Shown piece after piece: positions 3,241-63,942 of a stretch of 64,000 nucleotides of DNA. The number at the start of each line of letters is the position of its first letter. The stretch's first letter is position 1. A program made the translations under genes and the position numbers. Source of the DNA: Ditylenchus dipsaci (Eukaryota > Nematoda > Chromadorea > Rhabditida > Anguinidae); contig SADC01000394.1 of NCBI GenBank assembly GCA_004194705.1, positions 1-64,000 on the forward strand, in the 5' to 3' direction. The notes below the pieces were generated by a model, which saw nothing but the letters and a program-made list of their open reading frames with translations, was not told where the DNA came from and did no database searches.

Positions 3241-3471
3241 CCGTATTTCTCTAATTAGGCGGCCCCGTCGACTTTGAGCACCTATATCTCAGCCCAGAGA
3301 AATTTTTCGCAAGTCTGTTTATTGCATTTTCTTAACACCCACGACTCTACCGATTCCGCTTTTTAAATTTTGAATTTTCACACAAAAATCTTGAGATCGA
3401 CCCCGAATTTTTCCGATTTTTTGGGCATCCAAAAATAAGGCGGCCGGCCCCCTTATTGAAAGAAAATACGG
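3241..3471. mobile_element. pogo-like MITE, word AGGCGGCC
   Basis: Starts CCGTATTTCTCTAATTAGG and ends AAGAAAATACGG, bracketed by TA target duplications (3239-3240, 3472-3473). Its body (CTCAGCCCAGAG, TTGAGATCGACCCC) is shared with the copies at 20547, 25898, 33558, 42471, 59207 and 62153. The word AAGGCGGCC occurs at the left end and again near the right end as a palindrome. Confidence 0.85.
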
Positions 3472-3528
3472 TAAACCATAAAAATGTGAAATTGCAGTAA
3501 TTGTACAGTCGGCATTTTAACTAGTTCA

Positions 3529-7410: not shown

Positions 7411-7412
7411 TA

Positions 7413-8573
7413 CCGTATTACTCTAATGAGAGCACAGGGCTTTTATTTTTCAATCTCCCTCCAAGGGGGGCTCTCATTAGGACATGGGCTCTAAATAGGA
7501 CATGGGCCCTTATTTTTCAATCTCTCGGTGCCGAAGAAATTTTTATGCCATATTATCAAACCAAACAAATATATTCAAATTTTCTAACAATCAAATATGG
7601 TAAAATTCTTTGTTAACATCATTGATATCACATAATTTATATAACATCATTTTCAAAGATCAAAAATTCATCGCTCACGCACCCCTTTTCTTCGTCTTCG
7701 TCACTGTCGAATTTTACTGATTCAGCCATCGCCTGTCGAATTAACTAGCGTGCCTCCATCAGCTAAAACGGTCTATCAGGAATCGGAACGCGCTCCTTGA
7801 AGCAATGCACTTGGTCGTCCTCGCTTCCGTCATGGCATATCGTAATCATGCAAGTTTGGAAAGAAAAAGGCTTGCTTAGCAAAGAAAAGGATTAGCAACC
7901 CTTAAAGGACTTTTCAATTGCTTCTGTTGGCAATGAATCCCACGCGTCCACGATCCACTGCAGATAGATATCCATCAAGGGCGCCTTTGGATTGCTGCCA
8001 GTTGTCCACTCTTTCTGCGCATCATTTGACATCCATCGCTCGTAGCTTTTCTTGATCTGCGCTCTGAATGGGCATTCCACGAGACATCTGGACCTAAACT
8101 ACTTTTAAGTAAACTGAAACAAAATTCAAAGTGTAAACCCTGGATGAACATTGTGCATTTGCCTGTAACCACTTGCTTTCGATCAACTCCGAAGTTGACG
8201 GCGGCTTTCGCTTTATCGTTGTCCTTTGCAAACTTTACGACCTTCAGTTTGAATTCCGCAAAGTAAGACTTTTGCTTTCGTGGTGCTTTGCCCTACTCGT
8301 TTTCGCCTTCGTAGCCAATCCTGACTTGTTCGCTTTCCTCTTCAGAACCACTTCCGTAGTTTGCGATACACTCAGATTACACGAAAATTACACCAAAAAA
8401 TTACGACAAGAAACATTGCGATCAGCGAAAAAGCCAGCAAAAAAATACAGTTTTCATGAAAGGGGGGGGGCTCTTATTAGGACATGGGCTCTTATTTTTA
8501 ACCTCCCTCCAGAGGGGCTCTTATTAGGACATGGGCTCTTAACAAGACATGGCTCGCATTAGAGGTAATACGG
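7413..8573 (-). mobile_element. pogo-like transposon with transposase remnant, word GAGAGC / GGGCTCT
   Basis: The left end CCGTATTACTCTAATGAGAG and right end CATTAGAGGTAATACGG are inverted, with TA on both sides (7411-7412, 8574-8575). The phrase TAGGACATGGGCTCT and relatives are repeated several times inside each end. The interior encodes the C-terminal part of a pogo/Tigger-type transposase on the minus strand. It is one of two coding copies of the family here. Confidence 0.85.
7700..8080 (-). pseudogene. pogo/Tigger-like transposase, C-terminal remnant
   Basis: Minus-strand reading from 8080 begins CPFRAQIKKSYERWM, continues WIVDAWDSLPTEAIEKSFKG (to 7892), and after a short intron-like break resumes as DGSEDDQVHCFKERVPIPD (about 7840-7780). 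The order matches the end of pogo DDE transposases: W(I/V)xxAWxxxPxExIxKSFKxC followed by DGxEDD. The DNA-binding half and most of the DDE core are missing or too degraded to read, so it is not functional as it stands. Confidence 0.75.
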
Positions 8574-8575
8574 TA

Positions 8576-10579: not shown

Positions 10580-11272
10580 AAACCGATTGCATATACGTGT
10601 TTCTCGACCCTTATTTTTACGGAAAATGATCATCAGATTCTGTATACTTTCAAAGGGGTAACACATTACCCATAACACACCAACCCCCCCCCCCCCTCAC
10701 GGCTGACCCACTTTTGATGTGAATTTTTAAAAATCGATTGCATATTCGTGTTTCTCGACCCCAATTTAGGCGCGCATTGACCAATCGTTTACGGGAAACT
10801 GAAATTTTTTTTCAAAAACACCGGGGGTATCATGGTTTTTTTAGCCAAAATTTGAATTGGCGCCTTGTGAATTTAAAGGGATTAAGAGCTGTATAGGAAG
10901 TGGAAGGTATAAAAGGAAGCCACTAATGACACAAGGTCAATAACAAGAAGATGTTGAAGATAGTTTTAAATTTTGCGGCCTACTTCATAAATAAACTCTG
11001 GTACTCATGCGTTTTTATGCATCCAGAGTCGCTTTCGAGTGGATTTGTGTCTAAGATATGTGGGTGTTCGCATCTCAACTCCAAGCCTCCAACCCCAAAG
11101 CTCCCAAGCCCCTGCGCCCCCGAAGGGGCGCAGGGGCCTGAGAGTTAGAGATGCGCGCATTCACTTACCTTAGACATGATTCCGAGAATTACTCTTGATC
11201 AAAAAATGCGTATAGAGTCTTTTTTTGCCACGGCCCAAGTTGAAAAACACGGTAAGACAGTCAAAGAATGTA
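10580..11272. repeat. dispersed repeat, copy 2 (GTGTTTCTCGACCCC family)
   Basis: Second copy of the 5600-6130 repeat, in the same order and orientation. Two tandem starts are seen (GTGTTTCTCGACCC at about 10599 and 10747), each near a C-rich run. The central palindrome GCCCCTGCGCCCCCGAAGGGGC (about 11109-11130) is more GC-rich than in copy 1. Confidence 0.65.
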
Positions 11273-11400
11273 CCGTATTTCCTCTAATAGAAGCCCCGGG
11301 CTTCTATTTTTGGATGCCCTCTAGGGGGGCTTATATTAGAGGGGGGGGCTTGTATTAGAGGGGGTCTTTATTTTTTGAACTCGCCGCGCCGAAGGCACGG
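11273..11400. mobile_element. pogo-like element, left end only, word AGAAGCCCC
   Basis: TA then CCGTATTTCCTCTAATAGAAG, followed by GCCCCGGGCTTCTATTTTTG and further TTATATTAGAGG repeats. The word AGAAGCCCC / GGGGCTTCT is copy-specific. No matching right end was found downstream, so the copy is truncated or rearranged. Confidence 0.65.
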
Positions 11401-14150
11401 AAAAAATTCTGGGTCATAATGTTATTACGTCAACCTCCGATCACTTCTAATTTTTAACATTAATAAAACAGCGTTTTAACATCAAAACCACTGTTTTTCT
11501 ATAGACACCGTTTACCAGTTCACCCCTCTACCAAGTTTCTCTTGGAGGCGTTCTTCCTGCATTTTTTTGGCGTATTGGAAATTTGCAGCATATTATCTTT
11601 ATTTGAATAAAGTGATGCTCATGGGTAGTAGTGGCCTGGGAGCGTACGCAAAATGGAAGGTAAAGCTTGGTGTTCAAGCTTTTACCTTTTCGGTCCATTT
11701 GACAAACCTTATTATAAACTGTGATCGCAGTGCTATACGATGGTGTCTATTTATTTACTTTCAAAAAAAGTCCGAAAATCTAAAAGAAAAAGACGAAACA
11801 AGAAATTGCCGCGAAATACCGTTACAATTTATTTCCTGGTTCCTTAAACGTAAACCGACGTCACTATTTATCGTTTATTCTTGATTTTCTGCTGATGATT
11901 ACTGCTTAGGCAAAGATTGGTCAACCTATGTTAGGGGAACCTGAAACTATCTAAAATGTTCGAGTCCCTCCTACTAAGGCCAAACAGACACTTTACTGGG
12001 TTGTATGGCTATCTACTTTTGAGGAAAAAAATCAAGAAATAAAGTTACATTTATGTTTTTTTACATTTTTCTACATGGAGCACTTGAACTTGATCAAAGG
12101 CACCACCACCCCTCCTTTTTCACCCTCAGCTATATCAGCTTGAGCTACCGAGACAAAATTTATTTAATTTTTCATACCGGTAACTTAAATAATTTTTTTC
12201 GGTCAGAATTTTAGTCAAAAAAATTAAAAATGAAAACGCTCAAAGAAAGAAGTTAAAACTCAGATTTGCCATATTAAGGCGTCAAGAGACAAAAATGTCA
12301 AAAATAGGCCAAAATTTTTTCAAAAAAATTAGGTCCACTATTGCGCTAGTGCTCCTCGCAAAATAAAATATAATCGAGCAATTTCAGTGGAATTAATAGC
12401 CTTTAAAAAATGTCATCGGATAGTGGGGCACAAAATTTTTTTTGTCGTGTCTATGGGCCGCCACAAGCAAATATTAGCCAAAATCACCGAAAATGGTAAT
12501 TTTTAGTCATTTTAGCAGTTTTTTTTACAAAACATTTCCCCCAGGGCTGTAATTTACAGTTTCAGTTGATGGAAGCGAATGAAAGCAAAGTTTTAGCCAT
12601 ATGTGAAGCTTGATGATTTTATTTCATAAATAATAAATAAATATTTATTACTAGGTTAGAAATCAATATTCAAACTAAAAGTTTGAGAGATTTCTTTCCG
12701 CCAATTTCCCGTCGTCAAATTTTCCCGCCACTAAATCATCTCCGCACCTAATTCCAAAACCGATCTCTTCCTACACCAATTTGATTTGATTTATCACAAC
12801 TTTGTTAATTTGATTGATTTTTTTTTGAAAAGCAGTTACTATATTTTAAAATAATTTTGTTGTTTTCTGCATTTTTCTAAACCTTGTCCATTTTTACCAG
12901 CTGCAAAGCATCTTAACTTTATCATAAAATGCTGATTCATAAACAAATGTTTTATGCACTTTCTTGTTCAGAATCTCTTTCTTTTAAAATGCTCCCCACT
13001 TTTGCATCTATATAGAATAATAATCAAGTATGAATTAATTTGACCCTCGGAAAATTTGATCATTCAGTTGACTGTGCAGCGAATATCAATTTTGAATTTA
13101 ATCCTAATGTGCTGAATGCTTTTGCACATTACTCTAAGTCTTTTATCTGGACCCTCGTAAAATTCGATCATTCAGTCTTGTACTTTTTTCTTTAGATAAA
13201 AAGTTTTCAGATTGCGTCACAGGGGCTGAAGCATAAAATTTGCTAAAAACCATAGTTCTCGAATTTTCTAACTGTAGAAATTCTTATTTTTGCAAAAATG
13301 TCTATATTTCACTAGAAAGAAACAGTTGCTGGGTGTAGGCAGTTCTAGTTGTCAATTATTTAAATTAGAGAGGCTATCTTGCGGTAGAGATATGGTGGTA
13401 CATTTGGTATGTTAAAGTGAGGGAGCAGCTATTTTCAAAACGAAATTTGATGGCAAATACGAATTTGTCATTTTGTTACGTAGCAATGAGAATTAAAAAC
13501 GCAATTCAAGTCTAATGACTTGGACAGCTAAGTAGTAACGTGCTGACCTTGCACGAACCTGGCGGGTTCGTTCCAAAATGACCCTTACCTTTTCACAAAA
13601 TTCATTTGAAAATAGTCATTGTTTGAATAAACTGGTTCTCGTCTTTTGCACATTTAAAATTGCATTTGTAACGCGCTGGTATGCCCTTTAAGTGTAGCTG
13701 AAAAATTCGTGGGTTTTCAAGATTTTGTCCGTGAAAAATTTTCTAAAAAGATGTCGGCTTTTGATTATTTTCAAGCAATAAAATTTTCAAATATATGGCG
13801 CCTATATGTCGCCGTTCGAATGGGTTTAGAAACTAAAAATGCTTACAGACATTTTAGAAGGCCATGACTCACGGCTAGTGATCAGGAAATCTTTAATGAA
13901 GTATTGCCTTTGAGCGATTTTCAGCTCTTTTTAAATAAACATAACCAGGCTCCTAAATAGCCTATTTTTGCCGACATGCCTTAAAACGTCTTTGCGTTCA
14001 GCAAATTTCCTTTTTCCCAAACTTTGAATTTGGAGCCCTGACAGAGCTGATTTTCATATTGCTTAGTTTCAGTCATTAAAAACTTGTTTTTATTTCTTAG
14101 TCATTGAAAATCGTGTATGTCAAAAACTGTGTGTAAATATTCGGTTATTA
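11401..14150. other. long intergenic region, no supportable gene
   Basis: 2.7 kb of AT-rich DNA. The 105-codon frame at 11567-11884 has no signal peptide, domain or codon bias I trust. The only other structure noted is the tRNA-like segment at 13515-13585. Confidence 0.4.
13515..13585 (+). other. tRNA-derived (SINE-like) remnant
   Basis: Contains TAGTAACGTGCTGACCTTGC followed by GGCGGGTTCGTTCC, which fits a degenerate tRNA anticodon arm plus a B-box-like T arm (consensus GGTTCGANTCC). A similar GTAACGCGCTGGTATGCCC recurs at about 13668. Acceptor-stem pairing is not evident, so a SINE head or tRNA pseudogene is more likely than a working tRNA. Confidence 0.35.
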
Positions 14151-18779: not shown

Positions 18780-19830
18780 CACTTTTGACGCTACTCTACT
18801 CTCGGGGGTGTTATATTGGGAGGTGTTATATTGGGGAGGTGTTGTATCCAGGTTCGACTGTAGTGAAAAAATGATAAATAGAGCTACAAAAGCTGCGGTT
18901 TGAAAATTTCTTATAGAAATCTTTTTACTTTCAAACATGAGCTTAAAAGTCGAGATGGAAATTTGACATTTTCGGGACGGGACAGATTTTGAATCTTTTT
19001 TTTTCGGGACAGGACAGTCGGGACAGGAATTATACTGGGACGCGATACCGAGACGGAAAAAAACTTCGGAACGGGATCGAAAATTTTGAAAAAGTCTGCA
19101 AATTTAAATTATTGATGATAGATTGACAAGTGAACAGTTAAAAAAGGTAGGCGGAAGATAATAATGAAGAGTATGAGGGAACTACAAAGGTTTTTGTGTT
19201 AGAACAATTGCGGTGGTTGGCAGATTTTTCGTCTCAAGACAAATAAGATTCAGTCACTTGGGATGCTGTCAGCAACGTTGGGCTCGACTACTGAATAGTT
19301 CAAAATTTTGAACATATTTACCATTTTTTTCTAAACAATAAAGTCAAGCAAAAAATAATTCGAAAGCATTATTGACAAAATCTATGTAACCCCGCGCGCA
19401 TTCAAACCTTTAAAATTGCCATGATCAGGAAGTGACAAATCCTTTAACTGTAAATTCAGATGGACGGATGGTTATTTTTCAGCATAAAAAGTTAAAAAAA
19501 AACACCATTTAAAAATTGCAGGAGAAGTATATAGTATAATTTTTTTGAAAGCAGACAAGGTAATCCTACATTTTTTTCATAAAATGGTGGTAAAGATGGT
19601 TGGATACTTGTTCTGTAGTTTTACAGCCAAAATGCAAATAGTTTCATAAATAATGTCTTTTGTTTGAAACTTTGTAACATCTTGGCCAAAAAAAAATAAT
19701 TCATGAAAATTTTCATTTTGTTTCGATCCACCGCATTTTTCTAATAAAAAATTCTGGTTGCCGTTTTGTGTTTTGGACGTTGGTTGACCAAGTTTCAGCA
19801 TACAGTTGCAACTCACATATACTTATTCAA
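18780..19830. repeat. dispersed repeat block paralogous to 32845-33990
   Basis: Begins with tandem GGTGTTATATTGGGGA words (18806-18850). It then shares nearly colinear sequence with 32845-33990: AATAGAGCTACAAAA, TTTCTTATAGAAATCTTTTT, CGGGACAGGACAGTCGGGAC, and the family of 9060. It has a deletion relative to the 9060 copy between AACATCTTGGCCAAA and TTCATGAAAATTTTC, and extends to GATCCACCGCATTTT as at 36455-36495. Confidence 0.7.
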
Positions 19831-20514: not shown

Positions 20515-20866
20515 TCCCATTAGTGGCATTTATGGTGCAGTAGGTACCGTATTTACTGTATTAAGTCCCCACCCTCTAATAACTCACCACCCTCTAATAA
20601 GTCCCCACCCTACGGACCTTATATCTCAGCCTAGAGCGAACATTTCGCAAATCTGTTTTTTGCGTTTTCTTAGTTGCCGCGAGTTTACCTGATTACACTT
20701 TTCAGATTTTGGTTGAGCACCCAAAAATCTCAAATCGAAATATTTTTTTTTCGATTTTTTAAGGGTTGAAAAATAACTCCCCATGGGGACTTAATACAGT
20801 AAATACGGTAAGTTGATGGATGAACTTTTTTCACCGGTGGTTCGATTCCACCCTCTGACTGTTTCA
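20515..20866 (+). other. tRNA-like sequence interrupted by a MITE
   Basis: An A-box-like TGGTGCAGTAGGTA (20533-20546) and a clear T-arm/B-box GGTGGTTCGATTCCACC (20845-20861) are separated by the pogo-like MITE 20547-20808. With the MITE and one TA removed they would be about tRNA distance apart. The acceptor stem does not pair well, so this is probably a tRNA pseudogene or SINE head. Confidence 0.5.
20547..20808. mobile_element. pogo-like MITE, word AAGTCCCC
   Basis: CCGTATTTACTGTATTAAGT to TTAATACAGTAAATACGG, with TA at 20545-20546 and 20809-20810. The word AAGTCCCC(AC) appears three times at the left and as CTCCCCATGGGGACTTAA at the right. The body is as in the 3241 copy. Confidence 0.88.
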
Positions 20867-22029: not shown

Positions 22030-22263
22030 ACTGCGGGGCAGGCCCATTTATTTTTCAACCCTTCGATAATCGGAAAATTTTAAGATCGATCTCGAGATTT
22101 TCGGCTGCGTAACTAAAATCTGAAAAGTGGAATCGGTAGAACTAATAGAAGTTGAGAAAACGCAATAAACAGCTTTGAAAAATATTTATTCTGGGCCGAG
22201 ATATGAGTGCTCAAAGTCAAAGCCATTAGTTATAGAGGGCCGGTTTGCTAGAGAAATTACGGT
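22030..22263. mobile_element. degenerate pogo-like MITE
   Basis: Body in the family order (TTTTTCAACCC, CGATCTCGAGATTTTC, AAAAGTGGAATCGGTAGA, GAGTGCTCAAAG) with a right end GAGAAATTACGG. The left terminus is lost and the words (GGGCAGGCCC / GGGCCGG) are poorly kept. Confidence 0.65.
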
Positions 22264-25300: not shown

Positions 25301-27451
25301 AATTAGGAAACTTTGTGATCTACCTTTGGGCATAAATGTTGAACTAACCTCTGGAGCCATGTACCTCGGTGTACCACAACGGCCAGAAATACAAGCAGAT
25401 GGCTTCGACAACCCAAAATCTGCTAGCTAAAAAATTACTCGCTTAAAATTTATGTAAATTCATTTTTTGTAAAGATATGAGTAAATTTTCAGCTTTTTAG
25501 ATATATACCCTGTTCATCAAAGCCGACTTTTCAGGAGTGGTCGAAATTCATTTTGACACTCGAACATGGATGCACAATTTCACGCTGAACTTGTGTTCAA
25601 AAAACACCTACGATGGTCTTTTCGGTGTTTAAAACTTTCGTAAAAAAGTGTCGCTAGAGTCCTTTGAAAATTTTAGGTTTTTCAATTGTTTTCTGAAAGC
25701 ATGAAAAATATCAATAACTTTTTATATGGTGTAGATTTTTAGAAGCCGTGAAATACATTTTGTAGAAGAGAAGTGAGGCTATGTTTTGTATAGTTGTCAT
25801 GAAAATTTACTGCCGCGAAATCCCAAAATTTATAGTATCAACTATTAAGGATAAGGACTCGTTTTCAAATAGCTAAAACTTTTATTACAAACGAATACCG
25901 TATTCTCTCTATTAGTTCCACATGTGGGATTATTTTCAATCGTCCGAAAATCGGAAAAATTTGGGGTCGATCTCGAGATTTTCGGGTGCTCAACCGAAAT
26001 CTAAAAAGGGGAATCAGTGGAACTCGTGGGAGTTAAGAAAATGCAATAAACCGCTTTGTTAAATTTTTTCTCTGAGCTGAGTTACAGGTTCTCAAAGTTG
26101 GGGGTGTGGGTTTAATAGAGAGTGTGGAACTAATAGAGAGAATACGGTAATTGAGTGCAGACAGGGTACCATCTTCTCTCCAATCCCAGAAATCACACAT
26201 ATTTTGAATTCCACTCAAGGCAACAAATATTTTTTCTGAAACTTTTACTCAAAAAGAGTTTTAACTTTTTGTTGTCTCGAGTGCAATTCGAAATATGAGT
26301 AATTTTTAAGATAGAACAGCATTTATAAGCAAAGCGACCATGATACAAATATGGTGTCGGAAATTTGGAATTGCAAAGCAAACATACAAATAAAAATTCT
26401 GCCGAATTGACACCCCCCACTTCGAAAACTAATCAAACATTTTTGGTGGTTTTTTCCTTTTCCGTTTCAATTTTTAGGGCATTTTTGTAGGAATTTTGCA
26501 ATTTTGATATTAATGATGTTAATCCAACTTTTGATTTTACGAAATAAAAAATATAGCTAAAGGACATTTTTGAGAAAAAATAACGCAATTCGATACCTCA
26601 AATATAGATTAGGACCTGATAATTTCCAATCTTCAATTTTTTTTATTAAATAGCCCTACTTTGAGTATGCCACCTGCACCGATAAGAATATTCGCTGGTT
26701 TCAAGTCCAAATATGCAATTTGTAGTTCATGATCATGTAAATACTTGACCATTTGTATTATTTGAAAAAAATATATCCAAGCGTTTTCTTCCGTTAATAT
26801 TTTAGCTTCTTGTAGATATGCACGTAAATCACCGTTCGGCGCATACTCCAGCACTTGAAAATATTCACATTCTTGTGGGGCAAAGCAATTTGTTAATATA
26901 TTATTACTAACACAACTTTTAAAAAATTCGTACATCTTAATAATGTAAGGAGAATTTAGATTTCTCATTATAGCAACTTCGTTCAAGAAATATTCTTTTT
27001 GGGTGGTTTTCTTCAAAGCGTATTCCTTATTATCTTTTTGACTTGTAACAAGAAAAACTTCACTGAAACCACCTTTTCCAAGATCTTTTGTTTTAGTGTA
27101 AATTTTGTCATAATTCTTTATATGTTTCACTTTTAGATTTTTCCTCATTTTCTCAAAAACTTTTTTGGCCTTTTTTCTCAACTTAGCTTCTTTATTATCA
27201 TGAGAGCTGATGAGTGCTGCTTGTCGATTTGTGGTAATACTTGAATTGTTTTCGGAATTTGTCCTTTCACTCTTTGGGAAAGAGTAAAATCGGTCGCTTG
27301 ATTTTGAAAAAGAAAAAAATTGGTCGCTTGATTTAGAATTTTGGCTGTGGACGCTCTGAATTTCAGGCTCATTTTCAAAACCTGCATTTAAAGCTGGGAC
27401 AGTAAATCTTATAAGCACAAGTAGTAATAATAATTTCAAAGCACATCTCAT
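22309..27451 (-). CDS. secretory-pathway protein kinase, 4 exons, ~421 aa
   Basis: Exons (minus strand): 27451-26660, 25426-25349, 22754-22626, 22575-22309. All are in phase 0 with GT-AG introns. The start ATG opens a signal sequence, MRCALKLLLLLVLIRF (residues 1-24), then a Ser/Asn-rich linker to about residue 100. Kinase landmarks: glycine loop GKGGFSEV (125-132), ALKK with Lys147, Glu158 in NEVAIMRNL, catalytic loop YLDLKPANIL with Asp249, Lys251 and Asn254, DFG at 267-269, GTPRYMAPE ending at 290, SDLYSLGVILHEM, and Arg366 in PSERIG. ATP and catalytic residues are all present, so activity is plausible. The usual HRD is YLD, so this is a non-RD kinase. A poly(A) signal on the minus strand (22273-22278) lies about 31 nt past the stop. 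Introns 1 and 2 are packed with MITEs (23094, 23838, 24200, 24829, 25898). Group is probably Ser/Thr; substrate unknown. The signal sequence implies secretion or luminal/membrane location, which is unusual for this fold. Confidence 0.85.
23094..23530. mobile_element. palindromic element, end word AGTCCCGCTTTA
   Basis: Left end TACAGCTGAGTCCCGCTTTA and right end TAAAGCGGGACTCGACTGTA, inverted. Both arms hold AAGTTCGTTCCCACC-like and GACAGTCTAGTCCGAAATAT blocks shared with 24200-24650. The word AGTCCCACTTTAGTGTACAC recurs at the centre (about 23275). Lies in kinase intron 2. Confidence 0.75.
23838..24075. mobile_element. near-perfect hairpin MITE
   Basis: About 110-bp arms: AAAGGGCCTGACCTCTTCCT ... 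TCCGCCACGTTTCTAACAAA, and the reverse complement ending GGTCAGGCCCTTT. The loop is only a few tens of bases. Lies in kinase intron 2. Confidence 0.75.
24200..24650. mobile_element. palindromic element, end word CTCGATATAACGCC
   Basis: Left end CGACTCTCGATATAACGCCA and right end GGCGTTATATCGAGCAAGG. Arms are homologous to 23094-23530 (GTTCGTTCCCACC, CCTGATTCGGCAGTCTAGAA). CTCTCGATATAACTCTCGAT recurs at the centre (about 24416), where the sister element has its own end word. Lies in kinase intron 2. Confidence 0.75.
24829..25225. mobile_element. palindromic element, CACCCGTCAAAATCATTAAA arms
   Basis: The left arm (GAAAACACCCGTCAAAATCA ... GTAGCCCTGAATCTCTAGTA) and the right arm (TAGAAATTCAGGGCTACATC ... 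TTTGACAGGTGTTTTC) are inverted. No TIR word array and no clear target duplication. Lies in kinase intron 2. Confidence 0.65.
25898..26147. mobile_element. pogo-like MITE, word AGTTCCACA
   Basis: CCGTATTCTCTCTATTAGTT to AACTAATAGAGAGAATACGG with TA on both sides. AGTTCCACATGTGGGATTA forms a palindrome at the left, and GTGTGGAACTAATAG repeats the word at the right. Body as in the 3241 copy. Lies in kinase intron 1. Confidence 0.9.
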
Positions 27452-30295: not shown

Positions 30296-30496
30296 CCTAG
30301 TAAAACAAGGATTAAAAACTCTTTAAAAGGATTCTTGTAAAAAGAATCTTTTAAACTTTGTTATTATTGCTTTGGTAACCTGGATGTATGGAGCTGGAGC
30401 TTTGAAAACGCTTACCGTATATCTTCTAATAAGGCCCCACCTTCTATTAAGAGCCAACATTCTAACAATAACCCACTTTCTCACAATAAATCACAT

Positions 30497-31560
30497 TCAA
30501 AGTACATCTATAACACAATTTATTGGACAAAACAGGCACAATTCAATCTTCAAACAAAAAATATCATTTTCATTAAAATCTCCTGATTCTGCTTCAGCCT
30601 GTTTTTCGTCAAAGCCAGCTTCCTCGAAGTTATTTCGCATATCTTGCGCCTTCTCTTGATCTCTGGTTTTACGAAAAACCTTGAGTCCTTTCACACCGAT
30701 GGACCCCCCAGGTTAAAGCACGTTATTTTTTCATCCTCCGTTCCATCAGTAGAAGTAACTAGAGCACATGCTAAAAGGGAAGAAAAAGAAATCACCAGAA
30801 AGAAAAACGAAAAAAAAACCAACCTTCGAAAGATTTGATGATGGTCTCCTTAGAGATTTTCAACCAAGCTCGGTAGATCCAGCCCAAAACCACCTCGAGA
30901 GCAGGAGCCTTCGAATTCCCGGCCGGAGTAAACTGCTTATGAGAATCATTTGTCATCCATATCGTATAGTGTTCTCTGATATGCCCTTGAACGGCTTGTT
31001 CCAGCTGACGTCAGGTGCTTAAAAATGTGATTTTTAAAGCTCAGAGTTCAAAAATCTTACCTGGATGAATTTTTACAACCGCCGGGGATGAATGCTATTT
31101 GAATGCCTAGTTCCTTAAGCACTGCCATTATTTTCACGCTTTTGTGCAAAAACATCGTACAACAAGATTCGCTTGCCAGAGAAAATGCAGCCAGCCTTGT
31201 TCACATTGCACAAGAAATCTTCAGTAGTCGAGTCGTCCATCCAAATGAAGCCATTTCACTCCACGATCAGTTTGCCTTTGAATTCATTTTTAATCTTCGG
31301 CGCAGATCGTTTCCTGTTCACGAGCACATGCGGCAAGAGCTTTGTTTCATCACTTCGAGCAGCTAGGCAGACTGCCCCCCTCACTTTTTAATGGCCCGTT
31401 GTCACGACAGTCACCTAGAACCAAAACTAGATCTAATCCTGGGTTGCTTCTGCTGGGAATTCTTTTTCCAGAACCACTGAGAGATCACGACCATATTGCA
31501 TCAAAGCCAGATTTTCCGGAACTAAGAGAAAAGCTTCTGCTGCTGCGCGCAAACTGTTAG
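30497..31560 (-). pseudogene. pogo/Tigger-like transposase, degenerate
   Basis: Minus-strand fragments in order: NRKRSAPKIKNEFKGKLIV, FIWMDDSTTEDFLCNVNKAG and FSGKRILLYDVFAQK (31320-31130, DDE core); then WMTNDSHKQFTPAGNSKAP, VVLGWIYRAWLKIS and KETIIKSFEG (31000-30835); then TDGTEDEKITCFN (about 30760); then an acidic tail EAGFDEKQAEAESGDFNEND (30615-30560). The first and second fragments are in different frames with stops between, so it cannot encode an active protein as read. Confidence 0.75.
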
Positions 31561-31596
31561 CTGGCCAATTGCTCATTTTTACTGAAAACAGACAAT

Positions 31597-31599
<3 letters not shown>

Positions 31600-31637
<38 letters not shown>
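31600..31637. repeat. (AG)n microsatellite
   Basis: About 18 AG units inside the 30415-31877 element. Confidence 0.95.
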
Positions 31638-31641
<4 letters not shown>

Positions 31642-33557: not shown

Positions 33558-33807
33558 CCGTATTTCCTCTGATAACTCACCCGGGTGAGTTATTTTTTGG
33601 GTCGCTGAAAATTGGAAAAATTTGAGGTCGATCTCGAGATTTTTGGGTGATAATATAAAATTTAAAAACTGGAATCGGTAGAGCTCGTGGGAATTAAGAA
33701 AACGCAATAAACAGCTTTGCAAAATATTTGTTCCGAGCTGAGATATAGGCCCTCAAAGTTGAGGGGGTGAGTTATTAGAGCAGGGTGAGTTATTAGAGGA
33801 AATACGG
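33558..33807. mobile_element. pogo-like MITE, word AACTCACCC
   Basis: CCGTATTTCCTCTGATAACT to TATTAGAGGAAATACGG with TA on both sides. AACTCACCCGGGTGAGTT is a perfect palindrome at the left, and GGGTGAGTTATTAGAG occurs twice at the right. Confidence 0.9.
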
Positions 33808-39048: not shown

Positions 39049-39345
39049 AAAAATTAATAGTCTTGCTCAAAGTTTCATCTTATCATATTTTGGTGTCGTG
39101 GATTACTTCATAAGCCACCCACTGATTACTGAGGCAAATTGTTATAGCTTCGAGATGAAAAAACTGCATGGGTTTTCAAATTAATAATGAAATTAATTAG
39201 AGTCCGGTGCTCTTCTTGCAGTTTTTACGGGGATCTAAGCTGAGCGCGATCAATTTTCTTCCAAATGCGTATTTGTTAAATACTAGTCTTATAAACTATC
39301 TGGAAATCTTCTATCATGACAAAGCATCTAAACTAAAGATGTATA

Positions 39346-39502
39346 CCGTATTTTCTCTATTAATGAACCCCTCTCTAATAATGAACCCCCCTCGATTTTT
39401 TGACTAGGATTTCAGAGTTAGGGCCATTTTTGATTTACAATTTCAACATTTTTGGAGGGTTGAAAAATAATGAACCCGGGTTCATTAATAGAGAAAATAC
39501 GG
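39346..39502. mobile_element. pogo-like MITE, word AATGAACCC
   Basis: CCGTATTTTCTCTATTAATG to CATTAATAGAGAAAATACGG with TA on both sides. TAATGAACCCC occurs twice at the left, and AATGAACCCGGGTTCATT is a perfect palindrome at the right. Shortened body (157 bp). Confidence 0.9.
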
Positions 39503-40860
39503 TAAGTGTCAAGAGTGCCATCCCTCTATTCAAGCACCACTCCATTACCTCTGCTTGAAAAAGGGCAGAAATGATGTTAGCGATAGTAGCCCTAATAAAT
39601 CTCTCACTTAGTTGGATTAACGCTCGAGTCTTTTACTGCATCCCATGCAGCTAGCTAAGGCATATTTGTTTGCATAGCTCCCTAATGGTTCATTCATGTA
39701 GGTTGGAGTGAATTGGATATTGCACAACTTCCTAGCCCGAAACAGACCGAAATTCAACTTTGATTTGCCGAAAGGTGGGTACGTCCCTATTTGCTGGATT
39801 ACCCTTGAATTGCTCCTAATGGACAGTAGTGAGGTAGAAAGAACCAAATAGACGTGGGAAATTTAGTGTTGTGTGCATATTGGCCTTGTTGTTGCCCTCT
39901 CAGGACTCTTATTATTGCTACTTGTGTCCTTGTATTGATGACCGGAGTTTCTTTTGCTTGCCCTCTTCTCATATTTATCCATCTTTTGCCTCATTCACTT
40001 ACTTGCTTAAGAGCAGGAAGTTGAATTGCAGAGTTGAGTATTTTGGGGTATTTTGCTATTACAAGTTGTTGACTTATTGAAAACTTGGCAGGTAGAAAGT
40101 AAAGTGCTGACTAAAATGTGGTCGCAAAACCTTCAGCACATTGAACAAAGCTTATGGCGCCTATGACAGTATAGTCAAGCTTTTTTTTGGTAGAAAAGGA
40201 ATTTTTGGCGCAAAAACTAGCTGGTACAAAAGGACTTATACTTAGCCGAGATCGATTTTTTTAGTGCGATTTGCACCATAAAAAGCTTTGTTCCACCAAT
40301 TTTAGCATAGCACAGCTGGCACATAACTGAGAGTACATTTATATCGAAAGCTGACTTTAATACGAAAACAAATGTAAAATTACGGTGTTTCTTCGGTGCG
40401 AGAGGTGTGCCATATTATTTATTCGAAAAGTTTAAAATGTTCGGATGGGTGTGTGCTAGTCCGTATGATTGGCGAAAAGTTGGTTCTAACATTTGAAATT
40501 CGGCAGTGTAAATAAGCGATTTGAGAGCACATACAACCTAAAGTCATCTAGCCGTGCGAAATTCGTAGGAAGCGGCCGGCACATAACTGAGAGTGCTCCT
40601 CTAAGTGTGATATCGAAAGGTCACTCTAACACGAAAAAATATATATGACACACGCACACCACTCTTCATACGCCGATTTGTGTGCTGTAACTTACGCAGT
40701 CTGTGTGAAACATTTCGATGGGCTGTGGGCCATTCGCACAGTTCAATCCTTGGGAAATTGCCTGATTTTTAGGTGAATAATAATTCTCAAGTTATCGCTC
40801 AATTTTTAGCGCATTTCACCTGTTACAATTAAGTTTTTGTTACAATTTTGTTACAATCAA
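39503..40860. other. no gene recognised
   Basis: Less repeat-dense than its surroundings. AGCTGGCACATAACTGAGAG and CCGGCACATAACTGAGAG (40315, 40578) form a short direct repeat. Open frames have no domain signature. Confidence 0.35.
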
Positions 40861-42468: not shown

Positions 42469-42470
42469 TA

Positions 42471-42713
42471 CCGTATATTCTCTATTAGAAGGCCCGGGCC
42501 TTCTATTTTTCAACCCTAAAAAGTCGGAAAAAATTTGGGTCGATTTTGAGATTTTTGCATGCTCAACCAAAATTTTAAAAGTGGAATCAGGTAAGCTCGT
42601 GCTAACTAAGACAACGCGAAAAACAGATTTGCGAAATTCTTTTTCTAGGCTGATATATAGGTGCTCAAGGGGGCCTTCTATTAGAGAGGGGCCTTCTAAT
42701 CGAGAATATACGG
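42471..42713. mobile_element. pogo-like MITE, word AGAAGGCCC
   Basis: CCGTATATTCTCTATTAGAA to TTCTAATCGAGAATATACGG with TA target. AGAAGGCCCGGGCCTTCT is a perfect palindrome at the left; GGCCTTCTATTAGAG and GGCCTTCTAAT occur at the right. Nearly identical to 62153-62395 throughout, including the word. Confidence 0.92.
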
Positions 42714-42744
42714 TATGTGTGTTCCCACACCTACCAAAAAAAAA

Positions 42745-47284: not shown

Positions 47285-47530
47285 CAAAACGGTGAAAAAT
47301 CGGACCGATTTTGGAACCGATTCTGTTCCATTTTCGGGCCTGTTTTTGGAACAGATCGGTTCCAAAATCGGTCCGATTTTGGAACCGATTTTGTACCGAT
47401 TTTGTAACAGATTTTTTGTACCGCTTGATTTGCCGATTGTTTAATCGTTTGTTGTACCGATGTTTGTACCGTCTTTTGTACCACTTGTTTTATCGTTTCT
47501 TATGCAGCTTGTTTCACCTGCTTTTGTATT
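47285..47530. repeat. word island, GGTTCCAAAATCGG type
   Basis: CGGTCCGATTTTGGAACCGATT and inversions occur at least five times (47297-47405), decaying into TTTTGTACCGATTT repeats up to 47490. Both strands read open because of the repeat, which explains the frames here. Resembles an isolated terminal array; no TIR boundary found. Confidence 0.6.
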
Positions 47531-54115: not shown

Positions 54116-54338
54116 TTTTAAGGAAAAAGCGCCCCGAGAATTTGAAAAAATGAAAAGTTTTTTATTTTAGTGAAGGCGAAAATGTGCCCAGTTTTTGTGA
54201 AAATCGTTTAGACTAACAACAAAGTCGACATACTTTTGGCGACTGTAGGATAGAACATCCACTTGTCGCTGTTTTAGCTTCAAGAAACACGCTTTACCTG
54301 AGGTATGATAAATTTATCAAAGTGTAACTAACAGACTA

Positions 54339-54578
54339 CCGTATATGCTCTATTAATTAGACACCCCCTAAGTTCAAAATCGTGTTTTTGGCATTGTGTT
54401 TTTGACCCACTTTTTGATCACTTCTCCCAGGCAAGTTACAACCCATTTGATAGCTCATCTTTCTAGCTACAAAATGGGTGGTCACTTGCCTGAGAGAAGT
54501 GATCAAAAAGTGGGTCCAAAACACAATGCCAAAAACACGATTTTGAACTTAGGTGTCTAATTAATAGAGCATATACGG
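54339..54578. mobile_element. pogo-like hairpin MITE, word TTAGACACC
   Basis: CCGTATATGCTCTATTAATT to AATTAATAGAGCATATACGG with TA on both sides. Unlike its relatives it is one almost perfect hairpin with ~115-bp arms (GTTCAAAATCGTGTTTTTGG, GATCACTTCTCCCAGGCAAG) and lacks the usual body. Confidence 0.88.
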
Positions 54579-55477
54579 TATAACCTAAGGTTAATGCCGA
54601 TCGAAAAATATTAATAAAGAGAATAAAATTTCACAATGAGTTTTATAAATAAAGTTTTCATACTCCCAATATCACTTGCGAAACTCATCAAGAAATTTTT
54701 ATTCTCTTGTACTAGTTTCAAGATTATTTTCTGGTTTTGTCTGCATCGAAGGTTAGCCAAATTTTTCTCAACTTGTCAATGATTCTCAGAAACCTTCCAC
54801 ATTTTCAGAGAATCTGGCCATATTTTCGAAAAACTGAGACTTTTTCACAAAACCGGTCACATTTTTGCCTTTTTGACTAAGACAAAAAAATTCTGTGCCC
54901 AATCTTGGCGATTTTTCTTTTTTGTCCTATACATAGCGACTTTTCAGGTTGACCTGTACTACGCACATTTTTTACCTCTATCTTGGGAGTCTTTCCATAG
55001 TCTCCTTTAAGTGGTGGAGCGAGGGGATGGCTAACACCGCGCTGCCAGGTTTTTTTTCCGTTGTCTCACAGTTATCGCCTGAATAACTCGGTGTTATGAA
55101 TCTTAAATTTTTCGGTTTCAAAAATCATTCACGTGTTCACGAAATGAAATTCAATTATTTTCTGGCATTTCCTGCAAGATTTCTAAGAAATTTCAGCCCA
55201 TAATGTACAGCAGGCTTAAGGACACTCAAATTTGAAATTTATTTCTATAAATTTTTGTAGATTCTGTTAGCCGTTCTGATTTCGGATCCTTCAATATCAG
55301 AGACCATTGTTAGCAATTAGAGTTTCCAACGGCGTCGGGATTTTCAATAATTTCGGGATTCCAAGCGGATTTAGTCAGGATTGCCATCCCGTTGCCTGAA
55401 GTATATAGCTAAAATATAAAGCAACAACTTTTACTTACAAGCCTAACCAATTTTTATGCAAACTGATATATTTTCAG

Positions 55478-58400: not shown

Positions 58401-61400
58401 GCGGATAATTACAAAAGACATGCAAAAAATTGATAAAAGAGAAAAAGATTCAAATTTACACGATACTTACGTTTTAGCTTTAAAGGGGTTTTTCATCGGT
58501 TTTTCATCAGGTTGACAAACCCATTTCTCAACCCCCCCCCTTTAAATAAATATTTTTCTTATAGACTATAATAAAGCTGTGCTGAATTTCACTCATAAAT
58601 TAGCGTTTTCAGTGAACTTGATGTTTTTCTACCTAAAATGGTTTCGACAAAATTAATTTACACAAAAACTACTTTTAGTAGCAGTCCCTATTTTAATTTT
58701 GCAGGATACTGCCAATGAATGAGAGGTATACTGGCGGAAAAGATGTTTATGTACAACTACCGGTTAGTTTTTTTTCGCTCTTATCATATGTACTCTTTTG
58801 GGAAGCAATCCAAAACTCTGTAGGACCCCTGAAACATGATAATCTAGAAATTCTGGAGAATGGTATCACGTTAAAAATTGATTTGAGCATTCCAAACACT
58901 GGTTTTTGGTGCATTTAGGGAGCCAAATGCTGCCCTGAAAGTGAAAGACCTGAAAAAATGCACACCTGTCCGTAGAACTATTCCTTCCTTAAGTAAAAAT
59001 ATATTTTTTTGCTTAACCAGACTTTTTTGCTAATATTTTTTGTTGCCTTTCCGTCAATTCTCTCTCGACATTGAATTCATTTCCCGCCAAACATAATTTT
59101 GTGATACAAAAGTTATTTTAAAGCAAACGAAAAAAATTTCGACGTGTCTGTTCTTTACAAAGTTATGATGGTTTCATAGATCAAAAAACCTCAACCACAC
59201 GCCCTACCGTATTTTCTTTAATAAGGCTGCCAACCGCCTTATTTTTTGCACGCTCAAAAATCGAAAACTTTGGAATATGATCTCGAGATTTTTAACTGCT
59301 CAATCAAAATATGTAAAGTGCCATCGGTAGAGCTCGTGGGAATTAAGAAAGCGCATAAAAAGCTTTACAGAATATTCACTCTAGGCTCGAATATATGTCT
59401 TCAAAGTTGAGGGGCCGCCTTTTCAGAGGGGGCCACATTATTGGAGGAGGTAAGGTAGTTTACGACCTCATTCAAATTCCATGTAAAAGCTACCTTCCCA
59501 AATCTAGTTAAAAAAATGCTTTGGCTAAAGTATATTATAGCAAGTCATCCAAAATGGGTTTAACTGCTTTTTTGTGTGTTTTAGGGCACGTGTAGAAAAC
59601 ACGTTTTTAGGTGGGCGAGGGCACTTTTTGGAAAAATATTTTTTTTTTGGCCAAATTTTGACTTTTTGCTTTGGGGGACCAAGGTAAACCACTGGATAGG
59701 GTACCTGGATACTGTTTTTATTCAAAATACTCCCTGGAGATCTCACATTTATATAAAGGAACAGACTTTGCGCGGACAATATACCCTCGAAAAGGCTTCC
59801 TATTAATTAGGGTGCCTGCCGAAGGCAGGCAGGTGAAAGAATATTTAAAATAAATAAAAACGGTATCCAGGGACTTTATCAAGGTGGTTTACCTTGGTCC
59901 CCAAAGGCAAAAGTCAAAATTTAGTCAAAAATTTTTTTTTTCAAAAAGTTCCGTCCCCACCTAAAAACATGTTTTGTATACGTTTCAAGCCCTAAAACAC
60001 AAAAAAAGCAGTTACAATCTCTTTATGGGATATTTTGTGTATATTGTTTTGATGTTATGTTTTTATGTTTTGATAGGTCTCACAGCTACGCACTTATAAT
60101 TCATCTTATTCAGGATGATTATGATATTCAGCGGATTGAATTTTTGTCCATCTACTCCGTCAAGTATGACATCAGCTATGCGTCCCTACAGTTAAGGAAT
60201 GTATCTCGCTACAGCATTCCACCATACATCCCACCTCAGAAAAGTGTATGATATTATGCCGTTGTGTTGCGATAGACAACTTTGATTAAATTTTTTTCAG
60301 TACGAAAGTAACCTGATAGGCAATAGCAGAGAGTGGACATGGAATTTGAGCAATTTGATAGGCACACCAGCACAGACTAACTTTACCTTCCACTTGGTCC
60401 GTCAGGAGGAAAGAGGGGTTATCAGGTAATTAAAATAGTTTAGCATAAATTAGCTTAACCATGTCTTCCTGGATTAAGGCAATGCACAAAGTTGCCAGAC
60501 CACCTCAGTATGTTTGGTAAGTTAGTTAGATTTAGTCTCAAACAAGGTTTTTAAAAACTTTTAACATCATTTGCTAGCCCTAAGATTGTAGTGTCATACA
60601 AGATATTACGTCGACGTATTATCTTTGCAAAAATATGGCCGCGAATTTTATGCCTCTTTGACAAAAACAATTAACCCTGGACACTTTTTCACCATCTCTG
60701 CGCACTTTTCCACAAGTTTAGGCATTTCAACGAAATCTTTTTAGAAACGGTATTAGTAGGAAAAGACAATTTTCAATAGCCTTTATGACAACATTGGCTT
60801 TTTGAAAACCATGCAATGCTTTTAACAGTAAATAGTAAGTTTATGACTTGTTAAATTTGTTCGATTGACTTGTTAACCATTGCAGTTACACGAATCTATC
60901 ATCATTGCTAAAGTTGTTCGTAGACCATTTTTTTTCAAAATTGGTAGGAAAATTGAAAATCTAAGAGTGCAATCCTGTTCAGCGTGTCATATCTGTGAAT
61001 TAATCCGTCATACCGAAAATGGTTATCGGCAACCTTACGTTTAATTTTACAAAAAATCACTCTTAACTAACCGATTCCACTTCTGGAGCAAATTTTGCAA
61101 ATAACAAATGTTTTTTCCAAAATTTTGTTACAGGTACGTCAATGGCTACCTAGCCAATCTCTACCTGAAAAGAGGCATCACCTACACATTCATGTAAGCA
61201 TTAATAAATTTGTTTTCTCTAATTTCATTAATTTAAGCCTATATTTAGCGTTGGGGTGGCAAAACACTTCCTCTCCAGAATTCAACAACCCCTCTACCTG
61301 ACCAATGACTCCTATGGTGGCTACTCCAAGCTCACCAAAGCTGAACAAGCATTAGTCAAAACTTATGCACCTGAGAACCCATCAGTTTATTCGGGCAGAT

Positions 61401-63942
61401 TGTGCAGGTGGACAGCCAACAAACATGTAGAGCGTCACTCTTCCGAAAGTGCTTCTGAGGAGTATGAGTCTTTTGCAGATTTCCAGGCAACTCTCAAGGC
61501 AAGCTTTTTGTCTACGATTGTTTTGAGAAAAAATAATTGAATTATAGTTGGCTTGTGAAGAAGGTGATAGTCCAGCAGTTTTTTGAGTTTACACCCACAC
61601 TTGCAACTCCCAACACACTCTATTTTGAGGTAAATTTGCAGTTTTTATGTTATCCGTCGGTTCAATGTTATGTAACCCACGTTCGAACTATATCTTTACG
61701 TTTTTGTTTTTGATTTGATTATTCCGTCTTTTCTGAAAACCTTGAAGTTTTGCCATCAAACCATTGTTATTCAACGAAACACCGCCAATTTTTAAAAGTA
61801 ACCTAAGATCCGCAAATCTCACTGGCAAATATTTAAAATTTTCTAGAAACAGCCAAAATTAAAATCTTCACGCTTCTGCGCAGAAGTCAGAAGCCGTAAT
61901 CCTGGTAACTTTGGATACCGCTAAAAAAAGATCAGTGAAAAGACTTTGAAAACTAAACTAAAATAATTAATATTAATTTAAAAAAATCAAAAATTGATTC
62001 GAGAGGATGCTTTATATAGAGGAGTCAGGCGCTTCTGCAATATACCCCATCCGATTTAGTTTTAGGGACTATCAACTAATGCGAAAAGCTTCCGAACAAT
62101 TTTTTCGAGAAATGGTGGTTTCAGGTGCTCTCCAAAATATTGGATGGAGCTACCGTATATTCTCTATTAGAAGGCCCGGGCCTTCTATTTTTCAACCTAA
62201 AAAAGTCGGAAAAAAAATATTTCGATTTTGAGATTTTTGGGTGCTCAACTAAAATTTTAAAAGTGGAATCAGGTGAGCTCGTGCTAACTAAGAAAACGCG
62301 AAAAACAGATTTGCGAATTTCTTTTTCTATGCTGATATATAGGTCCTCAAGGGAGCCTTCTATTAGAGAGGGGCCTTCTAATCGAGAATATACGGTATAT
62401 TCGAGCAGCGTTTTTTGGGGAGGGGAATATCTTAATTGCGTCACGAGACTTCTACACCACGCTGCGAATAAGGTGTTTCAAGGCTAAATTTTCGAATGGG
62501 CTTCATCTTTCTTGATAAGGTTTGCGTATTAAACCGTAATAATGTAATATACCACCCGCTACCCTCCCCTGATTTTCAAGCACTCTTATAAAAGTCGATT
62601 TTTTAGGGGGGGGGGGGGGGGGGGCGTTATATTACAACAGGTTTTTTAAAGGTGAGTGGTATATGACAGTACTGTCTATTTTTTTGAAGAAGGTTATTTT
62701 AAACCCCCCCCCCCCCCCTCAAAGCTGCTTTGATATAACTGGAACTCAATACGTGAACACACTCGGCTCATACTGATTTGGTTTGCGAAAGGCTGAAATA
62801 TGCCACGAAAAAGATTATTTCTGCCACGAAAAACGACATACCACGAAAAAGCTGAAATGTGCCACGAAAAAGCTGAAATGTACCACGAAAAAGCTGAATT
62901 GTGCCACGAAAAAAATATTTATGCCTTTTTCTGTCCAAGACCAACCAAATTTTGCAATATTTTGCAAGAATTCAAATTTTTTAGTCATGAAATAACTTGG
63001 ATCCCTCAGAATCCCACCCCAGAGTGGCCAGAAGCCCCTGAAAGTTGGTTTTTTGGGGGTTTACTAAAGGGGGAGTAAACTTTTTGCGAAAATTCGATTG
63101 AGCGGATCAGAATCCCGGTCCGATCGACTGAATCACTCAGAATTCCACCCTGAACCACTCAAAACCACCATAAACCTGGGATTCTGAGCGATTAAGCCGA
63201 TTGGACCGGGATTCTGATCCGCTCAATCGAATTTTCGCAAAAAGTTTACTCCCCTTTAGTAAACCCCCAAAAAACCAACTTTCAGGGGCTTCTGGCCATT
63301 CCGGGGTGGGATTCTGAGGGATCCAAGTTATTTCATGACTAAAAAATTTGAATTCTTGCAAAATATTGCAAAATTTGGTTGGTCTTGGACAGAAAAAGCA
63401 TAAATATTTTTTTCGTGGCACAATTCAGCTTTTTCGTGGTACATTTCAGCTTTTTCGTGGCACATTTCAGCTTTTTCGTGGTATGTCGTTTTTCGTGGCA
63501 GAAATAATCTTTTTCGTGGCATATTTCAGCCTTTTCGCAAACAAATCAGTTTATGCCAACACACTCGAGTTAAAGTTAGAATTTGAGTTCAGAACAGAGG
63601 TTTTCACGCAACCAAAAGTTCGAACTACCTCGAACAGTGTGTGCGAGCAATTAGGGTCTCGTGAAAAACGACCGTGACGTCGCTATACTGACGCAGACGT
63701 TCCTCATTTTATTTATTTAGAGCTACAACAACTACCAGATGGGTTCTGCAATTTTTGTTGTGGATGAATTTCCTGGCGATCTAAAGCACATAGTGGAAGA
63801 GCCATTCCAGTACGATGCCAGACAACACCAGACCAATTTGGAGCTCACACGAGAAAATGGTGGATCAAGTCGACAAATTTTCAATTCAGCGGGTATTTTC
63901 ACTTCTCTTGCAGCTATTTTTGTTTTGTTTGCTTTGTTGTGA
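55478..63942 (+). CDS. knickkopf-like protein: DM13-DM13-plastocyanin-like, GPI-type tail
   Basis: Thirteen exons: 55478-55642, 56238-56310, 56362-56476, 57731-57808, 57872-57962, 58008-58094, 58705-58762, 60114-60245, 60301-60425, 61134-61193, 61249-61498 (GC donor), 61548-61629, 63721-63942. DM13 domain 1: MLYAINDSAIQIINFSW, DTFFWLDP, VVLILPNDRKISEFKSLSLF. Linker: NYGSVQINENLTAPK. DM13 domain 2: LVQILDTRTIKI, FSFEGNKAPDGYFF, KDVYVQLP, DIQRIEFLSIYSV, SIPPYIPP. Plastocyanin-like part: YVNGYLANLYLKRGITYTF, QQPLYLTNDSYGGYSK, GRLCRW, then NNYQMGSAIFVVDEFP. The end, SAGIFTSLAAIFVLFALL, is a GPI-signal-type hydrophobic tail. Arthropod Knickkopf is an extracellular GPI-anchored protein protecting and organising cuticle chitin; such a role here is inference. 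No DOMON domain is found: DM13-2 and the C-terminal domain are only one 55-bp intron apart (60246-60300). The signal-peptide exon was not found. Three 1-nt frame breaks (about 57924-57932, 58016-58021, 61579-61584) mean assembly errors or a young pseudogene. Introns hold many MITEs. Confidence 0.85.
56815..57255. repeat. very GC-rich word island (GGCGGTGCCGGGGCG) in an intron of the knickkopf-like gene
   Basis: Two blocks (56815-56945 and 57120-57250) of GCCCCGCCCCGGGGCGCC and GGCGGTGCCGGGGCG words, in both orientations, around about 170 bp of AT-rich DNA. They are far above background GC. Layout matches other foldback elements with terminal word arrays. No target duplication identified. Confidence 0.6.
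57515..57605. repeat. word island, CAACCGGTTGATC type
   Basis: TCAACCGGTGGATCCGCCGG, CTACCGGTTGATCA, TCAACCGGTTGATCA and AACCAGTAAACGGTGGA lie within 90 bp of the same intron. Possibly a solo MITE. Confidence 0.5.
59207..59455. mobile_element. pogo-like MITE, word AAGGC(C)GCC
   Basis: CCGTATTTTCTTTAATAAGG with the family body (ATCTCGAGATTTTT, GGTAGAGCTCGTGGGAATTA). The right end GGAGGAGGTAAGG is degraded. Words: AAGGCTGCCAACCGCCTTAT at the left, GGGGCCGCCTTTT at the right. Lies in an intron of the knickkopf-like gene. Confidence 0.78.
59525..60015. mobile_element. foldback element, relative of the AGCAGTCCACC family
   Basis: The left arm (AACTGCTTTTTTGTGTGTTTTAGGGC, GAAAACACGTTTTTAGGTGG, GGGACCAAGGTAAACCA) and the right arm (TGGTTTACCTTGGTCCCCAA, CCACCTAAAAACATGTTTTG, AAACACAAAAAAAGCAGTT) are inverted. 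Same intron. Confidence 0.65.
62153..62395. mobile_element. pogo-like MITE, word AGAAGGCCC (second copy)
   Basis: Same length, body and word as 42471-42713, with TA on both sides. The two are the closest pair of the family in the window. Lies in the last intron of the knickkopf-like gene. Confidence 0.92.
62535..62720. repeat. G-run / C-run MITE fragments
   Basis: GTAATATACCACCCGCTACC and GGGGGGGCGTTATATTACAA form one inverted pair; GTGGTATATGACAGTACTGT and a C-run at 62705-62718 look like the start of another unit of the 43343 type. Confidence 0.5.
62765..63557. mobile_element. Mutator-like foldback element, word GCCACGAAAAAGCTGAAAT
   Basis: Ends GGCTCATACTGATTTGGTTT and inverted GGCATAAACTGATTTGTTTG, perfect 9-bp duplication AACACACTC (62756-62764, 63558-63566). 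Six GCCACGAAAAAGCTGAAAT-type words at the left and six inverted at the right. The core matches 40876 and 48467. Both strands read as Lys-rich or Phe-rich frames because of the words; they are not genes. Lies in the last intron of the knickkopf-like gene. Confidence 0.88.

Follow-up and report, generated by a model that had tools for sequence, protein, structure and literature searches.

The 64,000-nt stretch of Ditylenchus dipsaci DNA analysed here (the window), part of one contig in a genome of 227 Mb in 1359 contigs, is populated by transposable elements that share a conserved terminal box and differ in an 8–9-bp word beside it. The words are alike within a copy and unlike between copies, and each is a subfamily mark inherited by descent, not rewritten at every jump. 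With at most one mismatch, the box TACCGTATTT has 32 occurrences in the window where 4.9 would be expected, a count that 0 of 100 shuffles reached, and a strict 19-base end motif has 11,502 matches genome-wide. The elements are mostly ~90–270 bp long with terminal inverted repeats and a high copy number, as in miniature inverted-repeat transposable elements (MITEs), and are best read as pogo-type DNA transposons, mostly short non-autonomous derivatives. Repeats have been reported to make up 55.7% of the D. dipsaci genome, with 10.3% classed as DNA elements, and the terms 'MITE' and 'pogo' are absent from the main text of that paper (PMC11118728).

A terminal unit consists of the box, the linker NYTCTAWT and the word; the box is conserved at both ends as CCGTATTT, which is presumably the cleavage end. 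At the tandem (T) end, box, linker and word are usually followed by one or two extra linker–word units in tandem, and at the palindromic (P) end by a second, inverted (head-to-head) word and TATTTTTCAA. We call the word nearest the box outer and the next one inner. Between the ends lies a body, such as B1 (~165 bp) or B2 (~70 bp). Rfam returned 0 matches. The elements insert at TA: among 48 elements whose flanks were joined, 10 matched a similar stretch spanning the insertion point in the sampled sequence, with exactly one TA at the unfilled site in four (L036, L052, L053 and L054; L denotes sampled loci) and the rest off by one or two letters or poorly aligned. The elements of the window and their pieces are as follows.

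3239–3473, plus strand: MITE, B1 body; outer word AGGCGGCC at the tandem end, outer AAGGGGGCC and inner AAGGCGGCC at the other
7411–8575, minus strand: internally deleted pogo-type element with transposase remnants, 1165 bp; inner units AAGAGCCC, outer words decayed (GAGAGCAC, GCGAGCCA)
7685–8041, minus strand: transposase C-terminal piece, DDE_1-like (E 0.026, below the Pfam cut-off)
8167–8277, minus strand: transposase DNA-binding piece, BrkDBD PF09607 (E 3.3e-5, 24.2 bits, cut-off 23.4)
11271–11420 (right limit approximate), plus strand: lone palindromic end, word AGAAGCCCC
20545–20810, plus strand: MITE, B1 body; both ends have AAGTCCCC as outer word; the inner word is AACTCACC at the tandem end and AACTCCCC at the palindromic one, and the third tandem unit is again AAGTCCCC
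22055–22218, minus strand: B1 body relic without readable ends, absent from the earlier list
25896–26149, minus strand: MITE, B1 body; outer AGTTCCAC at both ends, tandem inner AAACCCAC
30413–31879, minus strand: pogo-type element with decayed transposase, 1467 bp; word AAGGCCCC, right-end outer AAGGACCC
30822–30977, minus strand: transposase C-terminal piece, DDE_1-like (E 0.0051, below the Pfam cut-off)
33556–33809, minus strand: MITE, B1 body; four words, all AACTCACC; a similar unfilled site lies at window 19446–19569, where CA replaces TA
39344–39504, plus strand: MITE, B2 body; four words, all AATGAACC
42469–42715, minus strand: MITE, B1 body; four words, all AGAAGGCC
54337–54580, no strand assigned: MITE that folds as a hairpin; shares the box, has word AATTAGAC and lacks the fourfold word
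59205–59459, minus strand: old MITE, B1 body; words close to AAGGCGGCC, tandem end decayed, near 59459
62151–62397, minus strand: MITE with a B1 body, a member of the AGAAGGCC subfamily in which one inner word reads AGAAGGCT; clusters with L017:4865-5113

The elements and words given in the first-pass annotation are present in the window, with some revisions: 7411 belongs with 8575 and 30413 with 31879, and 11271 is a lone end, a scan over ~900 bp having found no partner box followed by a linker. The entry at 54339 in that annotation is a different hairpin lacking the fourfold word, and the element at 59205 ends near 59459. The hairpin at 54337–54580 is almost perfect along its whole length (−176 kcal/mol predicted as RNA), and a GA microsatellite lies at 31600–31640 within the 30413–31879 element.

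For the comparison of words, loci L021–L040 were picked through paired box and linker matches with the words ignored, and the remaining elements were drawn from the window, from 20 arbitrary 10-kb stretches and from transposase loci. This yielded 48 paired elements, of which 39 were scored once 9 further AGAACCAC copies had been set aside. The two outer words of a copy differed at 0.90 of 8 letters, against 3.85 between copies. Inner words (27 elements) differed at 1.15 within against 4.06 between, and outer and inner words of the same end at 1.48 (29 elements) and 1.29 (35) against 4.04 and 3.90; in every one of these tests 0 of 10,000 permutations came as close. A second reading of 15 end pairs among 100 listed ends, several belonging to elements that overlap the first test, gave 0.67 against 3.65 (again 0 of 10,000). 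Three known parser faults count against matching: a false pairing at 59205, a shifted inner word in L036 and the inclusion of L019:5389, which lacks a palindrome. The original claim of words alike within and unlike between copies therefore holds, as does its corollary that independent mutation at four sites would not produce both the match and the difference. The match is incomplete, all four words being identical in 7 of the 27 elements with four readable words. Per site, outer words within a copy differ by 8.6% (29 copies), no more than expected from separate decay of two sites along the median end branch of 0.059, so that copying from site to site at each jump is unnecessary.

Nor are the words copy-specific, as they had first been described. 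Among 100 ends listed from 7,940 matches (first contigs only, representing 85 elements), 17 of 54 words were found in at least two elements, and those words were held by 52 of the 85; among 100 of 1,240 B1 palindromic-end matches, also from the first contigs, 12 of 31 inner 7-letter words recurred and covered 81 ends. The linker tends to follow the word, AGAAGGCC for example standing with ATTC in 8 of 8 listed ends. Twelve of the 17 recurrent words have a one-letter neighbour among themselves (6.1 on average in shuffles, 14 of 2000 of which reach 12), as stepwise change predicts. The class count varies with the cut, since at one mismatch single-linkage clustering puts most words in two clusters, with 38 and 30 of the 100 listed ends. 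A B2 body at L015:8074, 95% identical over 60 bp to that of window element 39344, has the same inner word and a different outer word, possibly a recent change or decay; its second end was not found.

One proposed cause of matching is hairpin template switching or palindrome correction, by which each transposition or replication would re-copy the word between sites. The head-to-head word is indeed a quasi-palindrome, some copies have four identical words, and local copying does occur, as shown by L006, where the word unit has grown into a long tandem array. The genome-wide counts of P-end combinations, taken as exact 26-base matches and written outer/inner, point the other way. Outer AAGTCCCC with inner AACTCCCC (AAGT/AACT) has 218 exact copies, including the palindromic end of 20545, against 0 for AAGT/AAGT (AAGTCCCC on both sides), 79 for AACT/AACT and 2 for AACT/AAGT. 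The zero argues against perfection of the palindrome towards the outer word, which would leave such copies, and homogenization of outer and inner words is not seen in the AAGT/AACT subfamily; the 79 AACT/AACT ends could represent a subfamily of their own or the parent one, or could have been corrected to match the inner word. Among the seven multi-copy B1 subfamilies, moreover, three show an inner–outer mismatch at each end. Given the 218 imperfect palindromes and none with the outer word on both sides, we consider switching at each jump very unlikely as the main cause.

The outer and inner words can thus form two tiers, exemplified by L024 and L034 (outer ATAACCAC, inner AAACCCAC, one inner site AAACCCAA), L041 and L050 (outer AATCGGCC, inner AAACGGCC) and 20545 and L011 (outer AAGTCCCC, inner AACTCCCC, one inner site AACTCACC), with the exception that the third tandem unit of 20545 resembles the outer word. 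Element by element this is a minority pattern: it is exact, with outer equal to outer, inner equal to inner and the two unlike, in 3 of the 27 four-word elements (L024, L032 and L050), and it fits better than same-end matching in 6, worse in 2 and equally in 19. L052, nearest to L024 and L034, has one outer word AAACCCAC and the other TAGCCCAC; these three copies suggest a change in the outer pair, with the inner pair lagging behind.

We related words to bodies in a tree of 33 B1 copies, many of them from two contigs and the window, in which words were kept out of the alignment and served only as labels (that of L011 from its P end, that of L039 from its T end). Seven outer words occur in two or more rows and each forms one clade, six of them well supported and the AATCCCCC clade weakly so (52/43; recovered in 56% of bootstrap trees). 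All 19 labels require 18 changes, the minimum, against a shuffled mean of 26.6. Bodies with the same word are 72–99% identical (median 93%, 22 pairs) and bodies with different words 52–85% (median 71%, 443 pairs). In pairwise comparisons, whose pairs are not independent, a body difference of 6.8% goes with an outer-word difference of 7.1% (21 pairs), 21% with 50% (122 pairs), 30% with 51% (213 pairs) and 38% with 54% (50 pairs), and in all bins the box differs by 0–7% and the linker by 5–29%. Words are stable within a subfamily and agree among the sites of a copy, yet subfamilies close to each other already have words no more alike than unrelated ones; the words diverge more than twice as fast as bodies.

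This tempo bears on plain neutral subfamily divergence, under which copies would be matched only through the youth of their subfamily. Such divergence would fit the fixation of outer words per clade and a within-copy mismatch no greater than post-insertion decay. It is very improbable, however, because words reach the unrelated level at a body difference of 21% with their sites still in agreement, whereas four independently drifting sites would come to disagree within a copy. The first-pass annotation had suggested that a few old subfamilies, each with a fixed word, would make ordinary divergence a sufficient account; the data go most of that way, with recurrent words that form one clade each, but the subfamilies are many, the words outpace the bodies and some words sit on more than one body lineage. 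The body tree that it called for shows exact outer words fitting clades, and near-identical words fitting imperfectly once merged.

What else accompanies the words is transposase. Larger, transposase-bearing elements have the end architecture of the MITEs, and five lineages of them carry five words. The L006 element, with word AGAACCAC, holds a transposase C-terminus. A 57-aa query gave 150 scored matches of 633 candidates, and in the 20 loci fetched a AGAACCAC-type end lay beside the transposase match every time, at both ends in 16 and at one end in L047, L050, L055 and L066. Among more divergent transposase copies, L067 and L069 end in AGACGCACA and L068 in AGACGGGTA; L070–L072, at 72–75% identity, still end in AGAACCAC. 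The window contributes 30413–31879 (AAGGCCCC) and 7411–8575 (AAGAGCCC, in its inner units). C-terminal identity is 40–76% between word classes and 72–100% to the L006 copy among the fetched AGAACCAC copies.

In 7411–8575 the BrkDBD piece lies upstream of the DDE_1-like piece; it spans 37 aa (8277–8167), scores just above the cut-off and was found in this one element. Against the DDE_1 profile the two window pieces listed above (E 0.005 and 0.026) fall below the curated cut-off and two further window pieces are unmatched, and among relatives P0006 and P0015 pass it and P0007 is unmatched. A 74% identical DDE-1 protein of the free-living nematode Acrobeloides nanus passes the cut-off. DDE_1 matches number at least 181 genome-wide. 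The six best loci apparently belong to other families: in five, 1.5 kb on each side contains no matching TACCGTA box, and L041 has one MITE and a further stray box. Other pogo-type lineages therefore probably coexist in the genome.

Matched site recognition is the best supported of the three causes first offered. On balance we think it likely that the word is a lineage-specific, putative binding site of a pogo-type transposase and that matched copies are born from matched parents. Only copies whose sites fit a working transposase would multiply, and when the transposase shifts its specificity only elements that have shifted with it would continue, so that a nascent subfamily would seem to have had its words substituted at several sites, with the body drifting slowly. 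Unrelated bodies that follow one transposase would come to share its word. Copies would start matched and then decay, with no copying between sites required at each jump, and the outer pair may be stably unlike the inner pair because, perhaps, cutting relies on it and it is the first to change. Rapid replacement of words next to a conserved box would also fit an arms race, in which a host repressor or small RNAs recognizing the old word drive the change and transposase follows; 8 bp is short for small-RNA targeting, and we rate host silencing as extremely unlikely. More tentatively, and as a possibility rather than an expectation, the B1 lineage may have been carried through many specificities, with the word changing at both ends, outer first and inner later, and intermediates frozen in hundreds of copies; each burst would then be a speciation of a transposase–site pair, followed in parallel by several MITE lineages.

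Several observations weigh against matched recognition with inheritance of the word. Transposases and words do not always diverge together: AGAACCAC copies at 72–75% identity keep their word, and the AGACGCACA and AGACGGGTA transposases, 76% identical, differ in theirs. Only five words are tied to transposase, and the B1 bodies of the tree have none of the five as an outer word; no intact transposase was recovered among the copies collected. The tree comprises only 33 copies, with 17 of 30 inner branches below 80% support, and merging words one or two letters apart gives 15 changes against a minimum of 14; in tests that constrained two words to one clade, AACTCACC with AGCTCACC (p-AU 0.20) and AAACGGGC with AAGCGGGC (0.35) were not rejected. 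L011, with AAGTCCCC at its P end and AACTCCGA at its T end, shows the changed outer word at a single end. AACTCCCC, which is the inner word of 20545 and L011 and both outer and inner word of L064, lies on bodies rejected as one clade (p-AU 6e-5), and its place on two separate body lineages weighs against strict descent. In 14 cases of the 10-bp body stretch TTAAGGGTTG beside the word, the inner word is AACTCCC 7 times and AAACGCC 6 times, and AGTAGCCC with an identical linker stands on the unrelated bodies L025 and L032.

A word shared across body lineages would be produced by two MITE lineages following one transposase, or by end exchange, which is the main rival. Here ectopic conversion or gap repair would swap ends and bodies between elements, the body moving between end pairs that already match. 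The shared words AACTCCCC and AGTAGCCC and the pairing of one short body stretch with different inner words all fit such exchange, as do the 18 outer-word labels on B1 bodies (31 rows with readable ends) and the four or more on B2. Mixed copies look like the product of an outer/inner crossover, L024 and L034 (ATAACCAC/AAACCCAC) standing next to L052 with its outer AAACCCAC, and there is a precedent in Galileo copies reported to take both ends from one subfamily and the centre from a second (PMC3573991). Yet exact outer words agree with B1 bodies on the tree, bodies with different words are at most 85% identical, which leaves no case of recent exchange in the sample, and in the mixed copies outer and inner words are only 1–3 letters apart. 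Exchange therefore seems to us rather unlikely as the general explanation, and we retain matched site recognition.

Three features lie apart from these elements. A kinase-like ORF in the window matches a D. dipsaci protein at 89%, over 13% of its length. Another repeat, at L012:1695-7466, has ends TAGCGTAAATCTAGGGAAAATGGTC and forward copies ~2.7 kb apart, and a predicted tRNA-Asn (anticodon ATT) at window 47286–47380 has an unusual length of 95 bp and may be a false call.

In Tc1-like elements with inverted and direct repeats (IR/DR), CACTA and hAT elements, a conserved tip is accompanied by a family-specific transposase-binding motif repeated near both ends. The elements described here likewise have a conserved tip and a repeated lineage motif near the ends, its binding putative, and differ in that one tip is common to many word classes and one MITE body bears many. 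They resemble Passer, of the pogo superfamily, in TA duplication, a DDE_1-like piece, a BrkDBD-type piece and short terminal inverted repeats, BrkDBD or HTH_Tnp_Tc5 and DDE_1 domains having been reported for Passer-type pogo transposases (PMC7386202). Unlike Passer as described there, they have tandem words at one end, head-to-head words at the other and many words per genome, and only pieces of their transposase were recovered. Galileo of Drosophila is similar in subfamilies told apart by terminal repeats, in tandem expansion of ends and in centres from another subfamily; it is, in contrast, a P-element relative with long terminal repeats (PMC3573991), and recent whole exchange was not caught here. 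At L006:7260-9030, within the AGAACCAC element, a ~47-bp unit (TTGAAAAATA-word-TCTCTAAT-word-CCCTCAAGGGG) forms a long tandem array, in which the transposon end is becoming a minisatellite; such growth of parts into arrays recalls Tetris, a satellite-linked foldback transposon of a different element class and host (PMC4079207).

In the literature on MITE ends, subterminal motifs, transposase specificity and Ditylenchus MITEs, with few subscription journals covered, we found no recognized account of this pattern; the number of words on one homologous body, the tempo of the words and the fixed outer/inner difference are apparently new, at least to us. It is an open question how a transposase retargets when this requires joint change in the protein and in several sites per copy. 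Should the words be binding sites, D. dipsaci would offer many related specificities on homologous bodies together with intermediates, from which the order of steps and the accompanying changes in transposase could be read. A MITE lineage would then persist by tracking successive transposases.

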